A stretch of 26,968 nucleotides of DNA. It comes from a virus. The DNA lies in IMG/VR virus record IMGVR_UViG_3300030101_002068, positions 1 to 26,968 of that record. The stretch is one strand, 5' to 3'. Positions 1 through 8,733 of the stretch are shown one piece after another. The notes beneath the pieces were generated by a model. That model worked only from the letters and a program-made list of their open reading frames with translations. It was not told the DNA's origin and did no database searches. The first letter of the stretch is position 1. Each line of letters opens with the position of its first letter. The position numbers were made by a program, and so were the translations under genes.

Positions 1-72
1 GACCTTGCCACCTTTTTTCATTCCTTTGGATTTTACTTTACCACCCATTTTGTAACCCTTTTTCTTCATCAT
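1..72 (-). CDS. Lys/Gly-rich small phage peptide, 3' end cut by window edge
   Basis: The visible 24 residues begin MMKKKGYKMGGKV and continue with KGMKKGGKV, so the peptide is very basic and has an internal repeat of the type KGxKxGGKV. The start is set by a strong Shine-Dalgarno (SD) sequence, AAGGAG, about 8 nt upstream; a second ATG follows at once. The reading frame runs off the left edge, so length and C-terminus are unknown. Similar Lys/Gly-repeat peptides are frequent in marine phage genomes (family knowledge), usually unannotated. It follows the 421-aa gene in the same direction. The charge would suit nucleic-acid or virion-core binding, but that is inference. Confidence 0.6.
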   Translation of the reverse strand, partial: MMKKKGYKMGGKVKSKGMKKGGKV

Positions 73-126
73 TTTATTTGCTCCTTTATTGATTTGTTGA
101 GGGATTTTTGATCTCGATATTGTCAT

Positions 127-1392
127 TTATGTAATTGTACTAATAAAATTGTCTAACGCATTGTCTAAACTCGATACATTACCACCTTCTTGCATAGTTG
201 CAACTGGCATCTTCATATTAGCTAATAATTCTTTAAAAAAATCAGGTTGAATAATCGGTGGAAGCATAGGCTGTGTCGGCATATTAAACTGCGGAAACGC
301 TGGTAAATTAGCTAAATCAAAGCCTGGAGTCCTTGTTGATTCTACAATAGGACTAGTCGGTGCTGTCGGGGTCGTGTCATCTCCAGATGGCGGTAAATCT
401 ATAATTGGGTCAATCGGTGTGGTCGTATCAACCGCAGGGGGCATCATACTTTGTATCATAGCTCTCATGCGTTGCTCTTCTGCTAGTTTTCTCTCTGCAC
501 TTTCTTGGTCTTTACGTCTAAAATCTTCAAGCTCTTGATTTCTAGCTGCTGTACTTCTTGTTTGTGCTAATAAATCAGCATACCCTAAAGGTGTGATGTT
601 ACCAGCATCATCTCTTGCCTTGCCAAAAACACCACCAAATATGTTTGCTAAACCTCTTTCAAATTTTCCCATATTAGATAATTCTTCTGTTGCATCATCA
701 ATATTAACAAATGTGTTATCATAGTTTGGATTGAAATTTCCTGATCCTTGAAAATCACCACTTGATGCTAAGTCTAAAGGCATTGAATCATCTTCTGGTG
801 GAAAAACATTTAATGGTGATGAAAGTGGATTGTTGTTTTCAGCAAAATTTAATGCAGCATCTGCTAATTGGTCAACAGCAAGATTAGAACCACTATTATC
901 AGAAGCTGGTTGAGAAGGTGAATACATCTCATCATATTCACTTAAAAGATTTTCAACATAATCATCTTCTATCTGTTTAGCTCTTTCAGGCTCTGCTACT
1001 TTAAGGTTAGTAGTAAAACCACCATTGCTAAACCCTTGAATAATACTGTTCTCATTACTGTCCATAATCTCTGAACCTAAATTGTCCATGAAACTAGGAT
1101 CAAAAACATCGACCATACCACCCATATTCATCATCATGGGTGGCTGAGACATTGGTTGTTGCATAGGAGGTTGCATAGGGGGCAAAGCAGCAGGTGCACT
1201 CATCGAGGTAATATTAGGTAGAAGCTGTTCTGCGGTTTTTGACGCTATCGCATCTTTATAACCTTCCATATAACTCTTTAACTTACTTCTTTTTTCAGCA
1301 GAAACCGCTATATTCATCGGTGCCCCCTGTGCAGGTGCGGGCGGTCTTGGTTGCAGTGGGCCACCCATGCCAGAAGCAGTAAAATTTGCCAT
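127..1392 (-). CDS. Pro/Met-rich phage protein of unknown function (421 aa)
   Basis: I do not recognise a family. The N-terminal 90 residues are rich in Pro, Gln and Met, with MGG motifs near residues 9 and 91. The middle is acidic and Asn/Ser-rich. Residues about 285-315 form a charged helical stretch, probably a coiled coil, rich in Glu, Arg and Lys. A Pro/Thr-rich linker with DTTTP and PTAPT follows. The C-terminus contains MQEGG, which also occurs in the 310-aa protein at 23600-24532, so the two may belong to the same virion or tail assembly. No signal peptide or membrane helix is visible. AGGGG lies about 8 nt before the ATG. A structural or accessory virion role is inferred from composition only. 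Confidence 0.75.
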   Translation of the reverse strand: MANFTASGMGGPLQPRPPAPAQGAPMNIAVSAEKRSKLKSYMEGYKDAIASKTAEQLLPNITSMSAPAALPPMQPPMQQPMSQPPMMMNMGGMVDVFDPSFMDNLGSEIMDSNENSIIQGFSNGGFTTNLKVAEPERAKQIEDDYVENLLSEYDEMYSPSQPASDNSGSNLAVDQLADAALNFAENNNPLSSPLNVFPPEDDSMPLDLASSGDFQGSGNFNPNYDNTFVNIDDATEELSNMGKFERGLANIFGGVFGKARDDAGNITPLGYADLLAQTRSTAARNQELEDFRRKDQESAERKLAEEQRMRAMIQSMMPPAVDTTTPIDPIIDLPPSGDDTTPTAPTSPIVESTRTPGFDLANLPAFPQFNMPTQPMLPPIIQPDFFKELLANMKMPVATMQEGGNVSSLDNALDNFISTIT

Positions 1393-2164: not shown

Positions 2165-2318
2165 AGCGGAGCGAGCGTCAGCGAGCGTAGCCCCCCCGAA
2201 GGGGGGCCTTGGGGCGAGCGAAGCGAGCCCGCCCGCTGATTTGATCGCTAGGGTACCTGCCCGACGGTTTGCCCTGCTTGTGTCCGCTCCCCGATAAACA
2301 AGGCGAGCGGAGCGAGCC
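2165..2318. repeat. GC-rich tract with three GCGAGCG-N-AGCGAGC repeats
   Basis: Related copies lie at about 2167-2187 (GAGCGAGCG, TCA, GCGAGCG), 2213-2227 (GCGAGCGAAGCGAGC) and 2303-2317 (GCGAGCGGAGCGAGC). Between the first two is a hairpin, C6-7/GAA/G6, at about 2191-2206. The tract is far richer in GC than its neighbours and holds no supportable gene. It separates the amidoligase terminator from the promoter of the next operon. It may be imported DNA or a structured spacer; no function is assigned. Confidence 0.6.
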
Positions 2319-2350
2319 AAAAAAAAACCGCCCACGAAGTGGGCGGTTTT
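2319..2350 (-). terminator. Rho-independent terminator of the amidoligase gene
   Basis: On the minus strand a perfect 9-bp stem, ACCGCCCAC with GTGGGCGGT, and a 3-nt loop is followed by nine T residues (plus-strand A-run 2319-2327). It lies 25 nt past the amidoligase stop codon. The plus strand also has four T residues after the stem, so weak bidirectional action is possible. Confidence 0.9.
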
Positions 2351-2363
2351 CTGTAGCCACTCG

Positions 2364-2387
2364 GCAAGCCTTGTTCACAAGGCTTGC
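2364..2387. repeat. Perfect 10-bp hairpin with the amidoligase stop codon in its loop
   Basis: GCAAGCCTTG (2364-2373) and CAAGGCTTGC (2378-2387) are exact inverted copies around a 4-nt loop. The TGA stop codon of the amidoligase (2375-2377) lies in this loop. With the terminator just downstream it forms a double-hairpin 3' end, which could protect the mRNA or affect termination of translation. Confidence 0.7.
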
Positions 2388-3682
2388 TCACGTTGTTTAA
2401 ACCACTGATACAATAAATCATCTATACCGCAAAATATTGACGGGTTGCCTGCTTGGTTGTCTGCTTTACATCTGATTTCATTGGTTGCGATTGTAAACTC
2501 CTTTAAAATTTGATAACGTGCGAATTCGTCGCCGTCTCCAAAACTTGCCCCATTGGTTGCTTGTGTATGGGTTACAATCGCAGGTCTGCCAAATCGTTGT
2601 CGCATTTCTGAAATTCTGCCTGCAATATTGGAACGACTTGTTCCAGTTTCTAACATCATATCTCTAACGGTTGCACCTTCATCAGTTCTGCACATTTGAT
2701 AAATTGTATCTAGTCTTGTTCCTGCTCTAAATGGTTGCTCTGGTGTTGTTTCAACTTGGTTGTTATTGTTTGAATAATCAAGGTCTTGTTCATCTGAAGT
2801 ATAAAACATTGTTACAATCAATAAAATCCAATTAAACATTTTTCTTACTTCTAAGGTTCCTGCTCCTTGTCTAAACTCAACGGTTCCAATACCGCCCCAA
2901 CTTGACATGTTAACCGTGTTAAACTTACCGCCTAAAACTCTGCTCATATCGTTTGCGGTTGTTGATCTTTCCCATTCTCTGCTGATTGTTCTGTTATTGA
3001 TAATTTTATCAATAGGCAAGGCATAACGGTTGTTTGTCCTGCTCCTTGGTTGTAGTCTGTCAAGTATCATTTGATTTAATGCATATCTTGTTATTACTCT
3101 TTTAACCAATGGTAACGGCATAATAGATTTTAAATTCATTAATGAGCCATGTTTCCATGATTGTTGTGTAAATGTTATTGGGTCAATTTCTTCGCCATTA
3201 ACAAACTTATTACCTAAATGAAAGTGAGCTCCGCATTTATTATTTATTTTTGCATTTAAATCATTTGTTAAAAAATTACATATTTTATCCAAAACATTAA
3301 AAGAATAATCACACAGTGCAAACGGTTTAATTTTTAGTTCATAGATTGTGTTCTCATTAGGTGTTGCATCTGTTCCAAGTTCTGCAAAATTAGTCAATCT
3401 ATTAAATTGCAACCACTCGTTATTTTCTTGAATAAAATCTATTAATCTATTTTTAATATCTTGAAATCCTAGGGGCGGGCGGTTGCTTGTTGGCGGTTGA
3501 ATATAAAATTCAATTTCCCAACCAATGGTCGGATAACAATTTCTTGTATAAGTGCAATTTGGGTTTGACGTTGTATTCATGTATAATTGATCAATAAAAT
3601 TTGGTTGGCTTGTATGGTTTCCATAACTGAATAGCTGATCTAATAGTCTTTGATCTTCTGTTGTTATTTCAATATTTGGCAT
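2375..3682 (-). CDS. Amidoligase (Amidoligase_2 type) with C-terminal winged-helix-like domain
   Basis: 435 aa. The start is fixed by SD AGGAG 9 nt upstream. Amidoligases are ATP-dependent COOH-NH2 ligases related to glutamine synthetase and gamma-glutamylcysteine ligase; they form amide or peptide bonds on small molecules or protein tails. Visible signature: GWEIEF (E56, E58), ELK at 115-117, CGAHFHLG at 150-157 (H153, H155), N258, and TVEFRQGAGTL from 267. Residues about 323-392 look like a winged helix: GATVRDMM, then TGTSRSNIAGRISEMRQRFG, then a short wing-like hairpin ending RYQI. That fusion is unusual. The gene has its own promoter, operator and terminator and lies between two GC-rich islands, so it behaves like an independently expressed cargo gene. 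The substrate is unknown. Its likely partner is the GGCT-like gene at 8254-8733. Confidence 0.85.
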   Translation of the reverse strand: MPNIEITTEDQRLLDQLFSYGNHTSQPNFIDQLYMNTTSNPNCTYTRNCYPTIGWEIEFYIQPPTSNRPPLGFQDIKNRLIDFIQENNEWLQFNRLTNFAELGTDATPNENTIYELKIKPFALCDYSFNVLDKICNFLTNDLNAKINNKCGAHFHLGNKFVNGEEIDPITFTQQSWKHGSLMNLKSIMPLPLVKRVITRYALNQMILDRLQPRSRTNNRYALPIDKIINNRTISREWERSTTANDMSRVLGGKFNTVNMSSWGGIGTVEFRQGAGTLEVRKMFNWILLIVTMFYTSDEQDLDYSNNNNQVETTPEQPFRAGTRLDTIYQMCRTDEGATVRDMMLETGTSRSNIAGRISEMRQRFGRPAIVTHTQATNGASFGDGDEFARYQILKEFTIATNEIRCKADNQAGNPSIFCGIDDLLYQWFKQREQAL

Positions 3683-3707
3683 TTTCAAAACTCCTGTTTG
3701 TTGTTTG

Positions 3708-3757
3708 TGGGATAATCCCATAATCAAATATAATATGTAATATATTACAAGTCAATA
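3708..3757 (-). promoter_or_regulatory. Promoter and palindromic operator of the amidoligase gene
   Basis: On the minus strand TTGACT (plus 3749-3754) is separated by 17 nt from TATATT. Just downstream, at the expected transcription start, is the perfect palindrome TGGGATAATCCCA (3708-3720), 26 nt before the start codon. The same TGGGA-N3-TCCCA pattern occurs before the GGCT gene and the recombination operon. A second palindrome, TGTAATATATTACA (3735-3748), fills the spacer. The placement predicts repression by steric block. Confidence 0.75.
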
Positions 3758-3842
3758 CAATAATTAAATATTTGTTCGGTTTTTTTTTAAGGGCTGGCGG
3801 TTTTACCGCCAGCCTGCCAGCTGGCGGCCAGCTGTTCCTGGT

Positions 3843-3890
3843 GCTGTCAGGCACCAGAAGCGAACAAAGTTTCGGGAAAGTCCTGACAGC
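3843..3890. repeat. Stem-loop enclosing a GCGAACAAAGTTTCGG motif
   Basis: The arms GCTGTCAGG (3843-3851) and CCTGACAGC (3882-3890) are a perfect 9-bp inverted repeat. The motif copy at 3860-3875 lies between them, next to a smaller inner repeat TGGTGC/GCACCA. Confidence 0.6.
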
Positions 3891-3942
3891 GAGCTGCCGC
3901 CAGGCAGCTCGATCCCCGTTCCGCCAGGCAGCGGCCCGATCC

Positions 3943-3958
3943 CCGAACAAAGTTTCGG
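3943..3958. repeat. Most symmetric copy of the dispersed motif, CCGAACAAAGTTTCGG
   Basis: The 16-bp sequence has inverted ends CCGAA and TTCGG around CAAAGT, so it looks like a dimeric protein-binding site. It is the best guess for the full form of the motif that recurs through the window. Confidence 0.6.
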
Positions 3959-4130
3959 AATGTTTGCCAGGCAGCCAGGTCATTTCCCGATTCTGGCCGT
4001 TGGCCAGCGAGCTGGAGCGAGCTGCCAGCGGGGAGGGCTAAATGGCACCCCCGCAGCCGAACAAAGTTTCTGGTTTTTGTCTGTACGCAGCGTGGATCGT
4101 CAGCGGGCTGGCGGAAGCCAGCCAGTTCGC

Positions 4131-4177
4131 ACGCTGCCAGCGGGCGAAAACCCGAACAAAGTGTCGGCTGGCAGCGT
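4131..4177. repeat. Stem-loop with 11-bp arms enclosing CCGAACAAAGTGTCGG
   Basis: ACGCTGCCAGC (4131-4141) pairs perfectly with GCTGGCAGCGT (4167-4177). The motif copy starting at 4152 occupies the right half of the loop. This is the longest perfect inverted repeat of the island. Confidence 0.65.
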
Positions 4178-4214
4178 TTCTCAGCCCGATTCTGCTAGTG
4201 AAGGCAGTCGCCTG

Positions 4215-4235
4215 CACCGTGCGACGGTGTTTTTT
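4215..4235 (+). terminator. Plus-strand rho-independent terminator
   Basis: CACCGT, loop GCG, ACGGTG, then six T residues on the plus strand. It lies at the right end of the GC-rich island and just past the stop codon of terS, which is read in the opposite direction. No plus-strand gene precedes it, so it implies a plus-strand transcript across the island or an insulator against antisense transcription of terS. Confidence 0.6.
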
Positions 4236-4244
4236 CCTGTAATT

Positions 4245-4766
4245 TTAGTGGATTACGCTATCTGAAGCTATCTCAGTCCGAACATTTTCCTCAGGCGTTA
4301 CATTTTTCATTCTATGTTCTGCCAGTTTCTTAAATTCTTCCAGTTTTTCAAGGATTTGCTCCCTGTTCAAAGTTCCCATATCCTCATGCATGACATGGGA
4401 TTTATTAACAAGTAGTCCAGTTGCCTTCAATCTTAGCTCTTCAGCCCGTATAGCATCACTAAAACGACCGTTTTGCCACGCATCATTACGCATCTTTAAT
4501 AAGTCTCGAACAGACTTCTCCACAGTAACTCCGAACTTTGCATTAGCTTCCATACGCATCTCTTGTAATCGCTCTTGTATAACGGGATTACGCAATAACC
4601 TTACCGCATCTACAGTTGGGTTTTTATACCCTGCATCTCTTGCTGACGCAGTTTGCGTCATGTCTTTGTACATGAAGTTATCAAGAAACTTTTGTTGTTT
4701 TTCTGTTAATCTTTTCCAACCTGCCTTAGACAAATCTTTTGATATTGTTTCTGCTACTTGTGTCAT
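4245..4766 (-). CDS. terS: Terminase small subunit (Terminase_2-like)
   Basis: 173 aa. TerS recognises phage DNA at the pac or cos site and loads the large subunit for packaging. The N-terminal part has the family signature: LTEKQQKFLDNFM near residues 20-32, then the TQTASARDAGY helix-turn-helix stretch and the LLRNPVIQERL helix. The rest is helical and charged, as in the oligomerisation region. The start at 4766 has SD AAGGAG 8 nt upstream; a longer reading to 4814 has none. The large subunit is not in the window, which is odd because the two genes are usually adjacent. An iteron-like repeat cluster lies just upstream of the gene and could contain the packaging site. Confidence 0.85.
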   Translation of the reverse strand: MTQVAETISKDLSKAGWKRLTEKQQKFLDNFMYKDMTQTASARDAGYKNPTVDAVRLLRNPVIQERLQEMRMEANAKFGVTVEKSVRDLLKMRNDAWQNGRFSDAIRAEELRLKATGLLVNKSHVMHEDMGTLNREQILEKLEEFKKLAEHRMKNVTPEENVRTEIASDSVIH

Positions 4767-4854
4767 AAAGTTACTCCTTAATAAACATATACATGAATAT
4801 TTTTGGATTCGCAACCGAACAAATATTTGCTATTGGAATATAATGGTATGGGGC

Positions 4855-5064
4855 GGTTACTTACCGCCCACCATAACCCCCTTTAGGGGGTAAGTCGTGG
4901 TAAGTTGGTAAGTAGCAATAAAAACAATGACTTACCGAACAAAGTTTACTTACGGTGTTAAATTGTAAGTACCGTAAGTAATATATATTTATTTAATAAA
5001 AACAATTAGTTACAAGTTACCGCCCGATTTACTTACCGTGGTAACTTGTAAGTTGGTAAGTAAA
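4855..5064. repeat. Iteron-like cluster of GTAAGT heptamers; candidate origin or packaging site
   Basis: Eleven heptamers of the form (G/T/C)GTAAGT or its complement lie at 4859, 4889, 4899, 4907, 4930, 4948, 4964, 4973, 5031, 5047 and 5055, in both directions. Two pairs form long perfect inverted repeats: TTACTTACGGT/ACCGTAAGTAA (4947-4957/4971-4981) and TTTACTTACC/GGTAAGTAAA (5028-5037/5055-5064). Hairpins GGGCGGT/ACCGCCC (4852-4858/4864-4870) and ACCCCC/GGGGGT are also present, plus an AT-rich stretch at 4980-5010. The right end lies inside the 3' end of the metallopeptidase gene. Clustered short repeats beside AT-rich DNA suit a replication origin; the position next to terS suits a pac or cos site. 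Confidence 0.6.
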
Positions 5065-5435
5065 TCAGCCCAAATACCCTTGAATTGTTCTTCATTTACA
5101 CCATAGCTACATAGTGCTTTTTTCATAATTCTAGTTGCAGTTTCTGTCCATACGATTGCCTGCTCCATAGCATACTTCCATGCCCCTATTTCTTTTTCTA
5201 ATAGGTCATTATCCATGGATTGATTTTCTCCTACCAAGTGTCCTATTTCGTGCAATGCGGATACATAATAACCCGTATTCTTGGTTGGTCGTATCATGAT
5301 AACCTTAGTTTTTTGATTAGCATAATAACAAGGTGTTATATCATCTAACGGTTGGTATTTAACCGTTATCTTATGCTTTGCACATAATTCTTGGATATGC
5401 AAAGCCATATCAATACGTTTTACTAGATTAGGCAT
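5010..5435 (-). CDS. HExxH zinc metallopeptidase, ImmA/IrrE-like
   Basis: 141 aa. The motif ALHEIGHLVG (H62, E63, H66) followed by E(K)EIGAWKYA with E82 as probable third zinc ligand is the gluzincin pattern of ImmA/IrrE-type peptidases. Members of that family in phages and mobile elements often cleave an XRE-type repressor to start induction (family knowledge). Here the only XRE gene lies 3.2 kb downstream in another operon, so that pairing is inference. The C-terminal 17 residues are encoded by the GTAAGT repeat cluster and may be less constrained. The gene is last in a chain of 1-nt-overlapping genes and has SD GGGAGAT upstream. No signal peptide, so probably cytoplasmic. Confidence 0.75.
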   Translation of the reverse strand: MPNLVKRIDMALHIQELCAKHKITVKYQPLDDITPCYYANQKTKVIMIRPTKNTGYYVSALHEIGHLVGENQSMDNDLLEKEIGAWKYAMEQAIVWTETATRIMKKALCSYGVNEEQFKGIWADLLTNLQVTTVSKSGGNL

Positions 5436-8253: not shown

Positions 8254-8733
8254 TTACTTTTTATTACCGCTAAAATACTTCATTCTATAAGCATTTTTAG
8301 GTTGTCTATCTTGAATGGTATTAGTATGCACATGATGGCAATGCGACCACCCTAAAGAATTGTATAAATGAGAAGTATCTAAACCAAAGTCCTTATAACC
8401 TTCTTTGATACAATTAAAGTAACTGTTAGATGGCGGAGAAAAACTCGTACTGTTCATAGTATAAGTCATCATACCCATGATTTCTATTTTACCATATAAG
8501 TTTGGAAAACCCTCATACAAGTCTAATGCCTGCTCACACTCTTCTGTAATCTCCCATAAACCCACGGGCAACATATCATGATTATTGGTTGACGGTTGAA
8601 TGTCTGCAACACCACGAAATACTAACTTCCAATTTGGAATATATAAACTACCTAACTGTTTTGCATTAGGACAACGAAAAGCCATTTGGCTAAGATTAAG
8701 GTTACTACCGTATGCGATATATAATTTTGTCAT
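8254..8733 (-). CDS. Gamma-glutamylcyclotransferase-like protein (GGCT/AIG2 family)
   Basis: 159 aa. GGCT enzymes release 5-oxoproline from gamma-glutamyl amines; related ones act on other gamma-glutamyl tags. Visible signature: AYGSNLN at residues 7-13 (substrate loop), then PVGLWEIT at 56-63 and LDLYEGFPNLY at 70-80, with E74 as the predicted catalytic glutamate. Length is normal for the family. SD AGGAG lies 7 nt before the ATG. The gene stands alone with its own promoter region, and the perfect palindrome TGGGAAAATCCCA lies 35 nt upstream, the same operator type as before the amidoligase. Amidoligase plus GGCT pairing is known from comparative genomics (Aravind group analysis of amidoligases), so the two probably make and remove one gamma-glutamyl or peptide-type linkage. 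Confidence 0.85.
   Translation of the reverse strand: MTKLYIAYGSNLNLSQMAFRCPNAKQLGSLYIPNWKLVFRGVADIQPSTNNHDMLPVGLWEITEECEQALDLYEGFPNLYGKIEIMGMMTYTMNSTSFSPPSNSYFNCIKEGYKDFGLDTSHLYNSLGWSHCHHVHTNTIQDRQPKNAYRMKYFSGNKK

Follow-up and report, generated by a model that had tools for sequence, protein, structure and literature searches.

Amidoligases are widespread in phages, and in the passages on them in PMC10580990, PMC11318856 and PMC5498523 their assignment to cell-wall modification or host metabolism is purely inferential. The virus record IMGVR_UViG_3300030101_002068, whose 26,968 bases (positions 1 to 26,968) were analysed as a whole and are called the window here, encodes an amidoligase whose C-terminal part had been proposed, from the letters alone, to be a winged helix. 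Does this phage enzyme carry a DNA-binding-type domain, and what would such a domain do there? If present, a DNA-binding-type domain inside the enzyme would offer a handle on its role and timing, and a DNA-binding insert would predict a defined target site on DNA together with a regulatory response. We favour, at a probability of about 0.42, the joint reading of an active amidoligase combined with a winged helix that binds nucleic acid and regulates. Comparable combinations in other uncultured viruses and in bacterial genomes suggest that certain phage ligases may double as gene regulators. Our literature searches on amidoligases returned no title on a fusion of amidoligase and winged helix, which is a statement about the titles returned and makes no claim about print as a whole.

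The amidoligase gene and its core

Table 1. Coordinates of the features discussed (positions in the window; residues of the amidoligase protein).
Feature	Position	Strand	Evidence
Amidoligase with inserted, predicted winged helix	2378..3682, stop 2375-2377	-	435 aa; PF12224 27.8 bits, phrog_2443 4.3e-6
Glutamine-synthetase-fold amidoligase core (predicted)	2786..3535, residues ~50-299	-	conserved residues; pLDDT mostly 79-94 in 190-300; VIA-align Z 13.6
Winged-helix-like insert	2483..2731, residues ~318-400	-	model; related-insert profile (1/10,000 shuffles); sub-threshold DUF3489 / phrog_10315
Putative recognition helix	2591..2635, residues 350-364	-	model; net charge +3
Terminal helix of the amidoligase fold	2378..2419, residues 422-435, R431	-	R in 97/102 rows; helix 422-434 at pLDDT 91-93
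Promoter-like site TTGACT-17-TATATT of the amidoligase gene	3727..3755	-	10/12 matches
Perfect 14-bp palindrome TGTAATATATTACA, candidate operator in the promoter spacer	3736..3749	-	invariant in window, L002, L004, L006
Four copies of 16-bp near-palindrome CCGAAACTTTGTTCGG, upstream of the gene	3846..4168	-	
Gamma-glutamyl cyclotransferase-like gene, likely functional partner	8254..8733	-	phrog_2520 1.2e-26; PF06094 (GGACT) 18.7 bits, under cut-off 22.8

The open reading frame noted at 2375-3682 is a real gene and lies on the minus strand: it starts with an ATG at 3682 and comprises 435 codons and a stop. A longer open frame reaches 3727, and the ATG at 3682 has aggag upstream. The gene is flanked by the terminase small subunit gene (4245-4814) on one side and by a short gene and an HTH_3 gene (1441-1845) on the other. 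In sibling contigs, a gene named terminase large subunit by similarity follows a few genes past the amidoligase, and the large terminase of L002 shares 55.8-63.2% identity with its counterparts in Pelagibacter phages HTVC027P and HTVC023P, phage 023Pt_psg01 and phage DSL-LC04. We show here, by gene similarity, that the genome is that of an uncultured tailed phage which encodes the amidoligase between its terminase genes. An amidoligase was also sought at the equivalent place in two named relatives: of the larger hypothetical genes preceding the terminase large subunit gene, one in Pelagibacter phage HTVC027P and two in phage DSL-LC04 were tested, and none of these is an amidoligase according to Pfam. 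A small zincin-like metallopeptidase is encoded near the terminase gene at 5010-5435 (MPTase-PolyVal 4e-5, under its cut-off; phrog_87 metallo-protease).

Residues 113-289 match Amidoligase_2 (PF12224) above its cut-off of 22 bits, which establishes family membership by score, and the protein also matches phrog_2443, "amidoligase enzyme". The signature recognised beforehand (E56/E58, H153/H155, N258 and EFR from 269) is present in full, and E56, E58, D105, E115, H153, H155, N258, E269 and R271 are each kept in at least 101 of 102 alignment rows. Four further positions are replaced in the window clade, namely by A100, E101, K119 and G273, where the original W, K, S and H are each kept in at least 92 of the 102 rows; these WK, SP and RQH positions are conserved in the branch as sampled here and are not taken from a published family definition. 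The loss of W100, K101, S119 and H273 could mean altered or lost activity. Searches with the window protein gave no PDB sequence match up to E 10 and a single, chance-level match in NCBIfam.

An AlphaFold2 model from 102 rows reached a mean pLDDT of 74.7 and a pTM of 0.65, whereas a first model from 6 rows (mean pLDDT 36) was useless for the core. The core aligns to glutamine synthetases with a VIA-align Z of 13.6 at best (221-244 residues aligned at an rmsd of 3.6-5.7 A in the first ten rows), and the top Foldseek matches of the model are gamma-glutamylmethylamide synthetases (2.4e-4 and 4.3e-4). In the model, the core is a glutamine-synthetase-like fold.

The segment ahead of the last helix

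The same model places helices at residues 323-331, 339-346 and 350-364 and strands at 337-338 (short), 369-371, 389-392 and 395-398. Their order, helix-strand-helix-helix-strand-wing-strand, is that of a winged helix-turn-helix, and the elements closely agree with the winged helix that the sequence-only reading had drawn at residues 323-392, with a recognition helix and a wing. Blocks within 321-360 have pLDDT values of 84-91, with lower values in the wing (below 50 at residues 374-382); the shallow first model contained the same three helices at pLDDT 53-64. The putative recognition helix carries a net charge of +3 and the wing of -3, and the sum over the entire insert is just +1. Glutamine synthetases occupy the fold lists obtained with the complete model, and winged-helix families missing from these lists were not taken as evidence, since one domain fills such lists.

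The domain had been described as a C-terminal fusion, which the alignment and the model do not bear out: it is inserted ahead of the last amidoligase helix. Modelled within the full-length protein, the presumed tail of residues 300-435, for which structure prediction had been proposed as a check, separates into two parts, a predicted winged helix at 318-400, about 83 residues long, and the terminal helix 422-434, which is common to amidoligases without the insert. R431 aligns with an arginine in the great majority of rows (Table 1), insert-free proteins included, so that this helix is part of the enzyme, with the extra domain placed in front of it. Alignment and model together make it very probable that the winged-helix-like domain sits between the penultimate and the terminal helix of the core.

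Homology to other inserts is visible only with profiles: when the window tail was compared by phmmer with 9,385 ORFs from 183 loci, matches fell solely in the window's own clade. We rely on a shuffle test in which residues 306-411, without the terminal helix, were compared with 10,000 letter shuffles, using profiles made without the window. A profile of virus-contig inserts, built from segments picked by eye, which is a weakness, scored 9.0 bits on the window insert, a value reached by 1 of the 10,000 shuffles. A profile of DUF3489-type inserts scored 1.6 bits (reached by 372 of 10,000), which alone is not convincing, and a control profile of a different insert from marine viruses scored -0.8 bits (reached by 4836 of 10,000). 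The two winged-helix insert profiles detect most of each other's members, and the control profile detects neither set. Earlier tests with 5,000 shuffles, in which the window ranked above all 5,000 with one profile and third of 5,001 with the other, were set aside because they contained the shared terminal helix.

Further matches point in the same direction. DUF3489 (PF11994) scores 15.2 bits on the whole protein and 17.6 bits on the tail alone; its cut-off is 29.5 bits, so that the segment is DUF3489-like only and not a member of that family. DUF3489 and phrog_10315 both point to the insert segment, sub-threshold or weakly, and phrog_10315 is also the top PHROG match of a true DUF3489 protein, which itself matches HTH_23, HTH_11 and HTH_20. 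Sister inserts match PaaX, MarR_2 and HTH_24 weakly, and 11 of the 13 weak PDB matches (0.037 and worse) of the DUF3489-type insert profile are named transcription regulators. Moreover, hhalign of Desulfovibrio-order tails against window tails found the correct register (P 0.003-0.006, probability 4-6%), which we do not count as proof. We put the chance that the winged helix binds DNA at all at about even.

Distribution, constraint and origins of the insert

With tblastn, 35 of 50,697 named phage records and 2 of 72,556 plasmids were matched, all aligned to the amidoligase part only, and with three queries no match in the 50,697 named phage records covered 80% of a query. Nine of the genes found (L015-L023) continue for 35-79 residues past the core, the exception being a Vibrio phage gene with 181. 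In the first larger scans, at least 385 viral stretches and 141 genome stretches were confirmed, and the best 80 of each were used; a second viral scan confirmed 549 of 576 stretches, of which the best 80 were used. Counts of relatives given here describe samples of best-scoring loci and not totals. The branch to which we refer consists of 171 of 209 unique near-complete cores, those scoring at least 150 bits with a core profile built from six phage and plasmid proteins, and the window clade lies outside the 171.

Among the 171 branch members sampled, 117 end within 66 residues past the core, 2 within 67-90 and 52 later. The sequence-only reading had itself raised the possibility that the tail is common to all amidoligases. 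That the tail is simply a part of the amidoligase fold is true of its last 14 residues and was accepted for 422-435; for 318-400 it was ruled out, because those 117 members end too early to have room for an insert, and the tblastn alignments in the 35 named phages stop ahead of the tail, which leaves this explanation hardly credible for the tail as a whole. The architecture had also been called non-standard, and it is indeed absent from most amidoligases sampled. It recurs nevertheless: the search for it elsewhere, likewise proposed beforehand, found winged-helix inserts at the equivalent spot in 13 other virus contigs (among the matches listed) and in 8 genomes of one Desulfovibrio-containing order.

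The virus-contig inserts come from twelve loci of the second viral scan and from L058 of the first scan, which was seen again as L271. Those of L226, L229 and L231 were found with a profile of Desulfovibrio-order tails; nine further inserts, chosen by eye, gave a second profile, which L058 then matched at 1.5e-8. The Desulfovibrio MAG L135 belongs to an order in which 45 of 297 genomes sampled contain Amidoligase_2. Nine places in this order are branch-like by score and length, namely L135 and eight further loci, and a DUF3489-like insert is present in L135 and in seven of the eight, the eighth (L225) being cut by the contig end; other loci of this search that the core profile recognised have a different tail of ~86 residues. 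L135 (32.0 bits) and L229 (57.5) exceed the DUF3489 cut-off of 29.5 bits, and L221 and L226 (27.1) fall under it.

Several further arrangements were observed. Many virus-contig amidoligases (L055, L063, L064, L066, L073, L097, L103 and others) carry a different insert of ~90 residues ahead of the terminal helix, which is not a winged helix by profile. A separate DUF3489 gene (86-107 bits; L229:1973-2599, L231:188-871 and L223:1271-1885) lies upstream of amidoligases with a DUF3489-like insert. Tandem amidoligase ORFs occur on a Syntrophomonadaceae MAG contig (L163:617-2197 and 2207-3112). An N-terminal segment of ~55 residues with a helix-turn-helix-like pattern is found in 65 of the 171 branch proteins sampled (L018, L028, L034, L113 and others), its carriers being Bacteroidota and virus contigs near them; we treat it only as a lead, as a PDB profile search was unsupportive and each of the Pfam HTH families recognises only 1-2 of 12 members.

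The cyclotransferase-like gene shares the strand with the amidoligase in the window, and the sibling loci L009 and L010 have one too. Such a gene lies near the amidoligase in 62 of the 171 branch loci sampled, whose flanks are mostly 3 kb or less. By class, it was found in 40 of 52 loci sampled with a long C-terminal extension, in none of 65 with the N-terminal domain and in 22 of 54 with neither. Outside the window clade, 9 of the 20 listed loci with a winged-helix insert have it close by, and it was not found within the flanks of the Desulfovibrio-order loci. The passages on such cassettes in PMC5498523, PMC10580990 and PMC11318856 assign them to cell-wall modification and superinfection protection by inference.

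A scan of viral contigs gave 6 contigs with close relatives of the window protein (7 stretches matched, 6 confirmed), and a profile search returned the same contigs. The tail is present in 5 of the 6, the remaining one, L006, being cut ahead of it. Between the window and L004, identity is 93% over residues 311-395 and 72% over residues 1-310, while synonymous differences at codons for identical residues are even along the gene, at 28 of 75 (37%) and 75 of 210 (36%), respectively. High identity together with even synonymous change indicates that the tail is held by selection and does not reflect recent exchange; recombination as the cause of its identity was ruled out on this ground. Measured by codon comparison, the insert here is more strongly constrained as protein than the enzyme part.

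In a core tree of 123 rows, the window and L004 sit together on a long branch (2.99) apart from all other winged-helix carriers, and identity between the window and alignment rows outside its clade is ~14-27%. Mapped on this tree, the winged-helix label requires 4 changes, and well-supported branches force at least 3 of them. Because the bootstrap had not converged and long branches can be misleading, several origins of the winged-helix insert are likely from these sequences but not proven.

The long branch also bears on the idea that the core is an inactive amidoligase which serves the winged helix as a sensor. The clade-specific replacement of W100, K101, S119 and H273 would fit such a pseudo-enzyme, as would an insert more conserved than its core. 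We nevertheless consider it improbable: the conserved residues from E56 to R271 listed above are all kept, the core keeps 72% identity between lineages in which 36% of synonymous-comparable codons differ and is therefore under selection, and the cyclotransferase gene has been retained.

The upstream region and the role of the domain

The sequence-only reading had suggested that the ligase might sense its own expression, and this idea gains circumstantial support from the perfect palindrome TGTAATATATTACA in the promoter-like site of the gene, which is invariant in the window and three siblings. The window has only 3 perfect palindromes of 14 bp or more, this one included, and in the window, L002, L004 and L006 it is followed by an invariant TGGGATTATCCCA. 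Promoter-like sites are common by chance (43 found against 31.7 expected in the region scanned), and near-matches to TGTAATATATTACA, with 3 mismatches allowed, are not enriched (7 against 5.4 expected by chance); the palindrome is therefore a candidate operator only. A second promoter-like site, ahead of the operon leading to the HTH_3 gene, has a related sequence, TTGACA...TGTAATATATTAC, in L004 and L007, and the HTH_3 protein (1441-1845) is an equally good candidate for the reader of TGTAATATATTACA. The upstream regions of the other winged-helix amidoligases, taken as a set, have no shared repeat or palindrome.

The intergenic block at 3765-4245 on the minus strand, which separates the amidoligase gene from that of the terminase small subunit, is GC-rich (0.46-0.53 against ~0.35 for the genome) and has strong predicted RNA folding (-214.9 kcal/mol, z -5.75). 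The CCGAAACTTTGTTCGG repeats also occur in L002, L003, L004, L005 and L006, with near-identical spacing in the siblings. The block may serve in packaging, as a cos/pac site, or may be an array of operators or a structured RNA; no Rfam family scored above threshold in the window, and three weak Rfam matches in 3700-4300 were judged to be chance. A second GC-rich intergenic block lies directly downstream of the amidoligase gene (~2120-2350) and is conserved in L004.

Under the favoured joint reading, the amidoligase would form an ATP-dependent gamma-glutamyl-type amide bond on an acceptor, which may be a small molecule, a cell-wall peptide or a protein, and the cyclotransferase would remove or recycle the gamma-glutamyl product. 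The winged helix would contact DNA through helix 350-364, and the protein would act as an autoregulator of the trigger-enzyme type that represses its own promoter with TGTAATATATTACA in the spacer, the substrate state of the amidoligase altering DNA binding. Autoregulation as such appears rather unlikely to us.

A different assignment of the same elements would make the winged helix a module for protein-protein contacts, oligomerisation or substrate handling and leave regulation of the gene, via the palindrome, to the HTH_3 protein. The acidic wing and the near-neutral domain are consistent with this, the related sequence in the second promoter-like site (L004, L007) would suit an autoregulating HTH_3 repressor, and other small domains fill the same insertion site in other viruses. 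The net charge of +3 on the recognition helix argues against it, however, as do sister inserts that belong to or resemble DUF3489, PaaX and MarR_2, and we regard it as a serious but unlikely alternative.

Alternatively, the winged helix could bring the ligase to DNA, where it would modify a base, the packaging machinery or host proteins bound there. The gene lies just past the terminase small subunit gene and, in siblings, ahead of the large subunit, four 16-bp repeats separate it from the former, and several lineages have amidoligases with a DNA-binding-like domain at one end or the other. Partner genes for base modification were not recognised among the genes scanned, and the usual partner, the cyclotransferase, better fits a soluble or cell-wall gamma-glutamyl product, as far as the relevant passages of PMC5498523 go, which makes this targeting distinctly improbable.

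The joint reading might be widened to a class: phage amidoligases of this branch would be DNA-reading enzymes that acquired their domains repeatedly, with winged helices ahead of the terminal helix in three or more branches and, in the Bacteroidota lineage, N-terminal domains of a helix-turn-helix-like kind. The protein described here would then be its own repressor, reading both a gamma-glutamyl substrate and the promoter palindrome; we consider this wider version quite unlikely.

From alignments and model, the window protein appears to be a new and recurrent variant of a known enzyme family. The Amidoligase_2 proteins of Porphyromonas, Arthrobacter and Bacillus phages have the same core fold, catalytic-type residues and terminal helix, and in Bacillus phage 035JT001 a gamma-glutamyl cyclotransferase gene is close to the amidoligase, as in the window; the window protein differs from known members by a predicted winged helix before the terminal helix and by four replaced conserved residues. 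The amidoligases with DUF3489-type inserts (L135, L218-L224, L226, L229, L231) share the insertion site, the order of elements and the terminal helix, but their inserts reach higher DUF3489 scores (57.5 bits at most, in L229) and their cores are ~20% identical to the window. By profile, the inserts nearest to that of the window are those of L227, L235, L237, L238, L277, L281 and L283, which also have a cyclotransferase gene close by; L285, L248 and L058 carry more distant members of this virus-contig set, and none of the set shows close core kinship to the window. Glutamine synthetase and gamma-glutamylmethylamide synthetase have the same fold as the window core at 8-14% identity and are not known to carry a winged helix. 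The site before the terminal helix appears to be a permissive spot in the glutamine-synthetase fold, at which small domains of more than one kind have been accommodated. Trigger enzymes with a second role in regulation, such as PutA and BirA, combine an enzyme and a DNA-binding domain in one chain, and the amidoligase of the window likewise unites an enzyme with a DNA-binding-type domain, whose DNA-binding role is in this case predicted.
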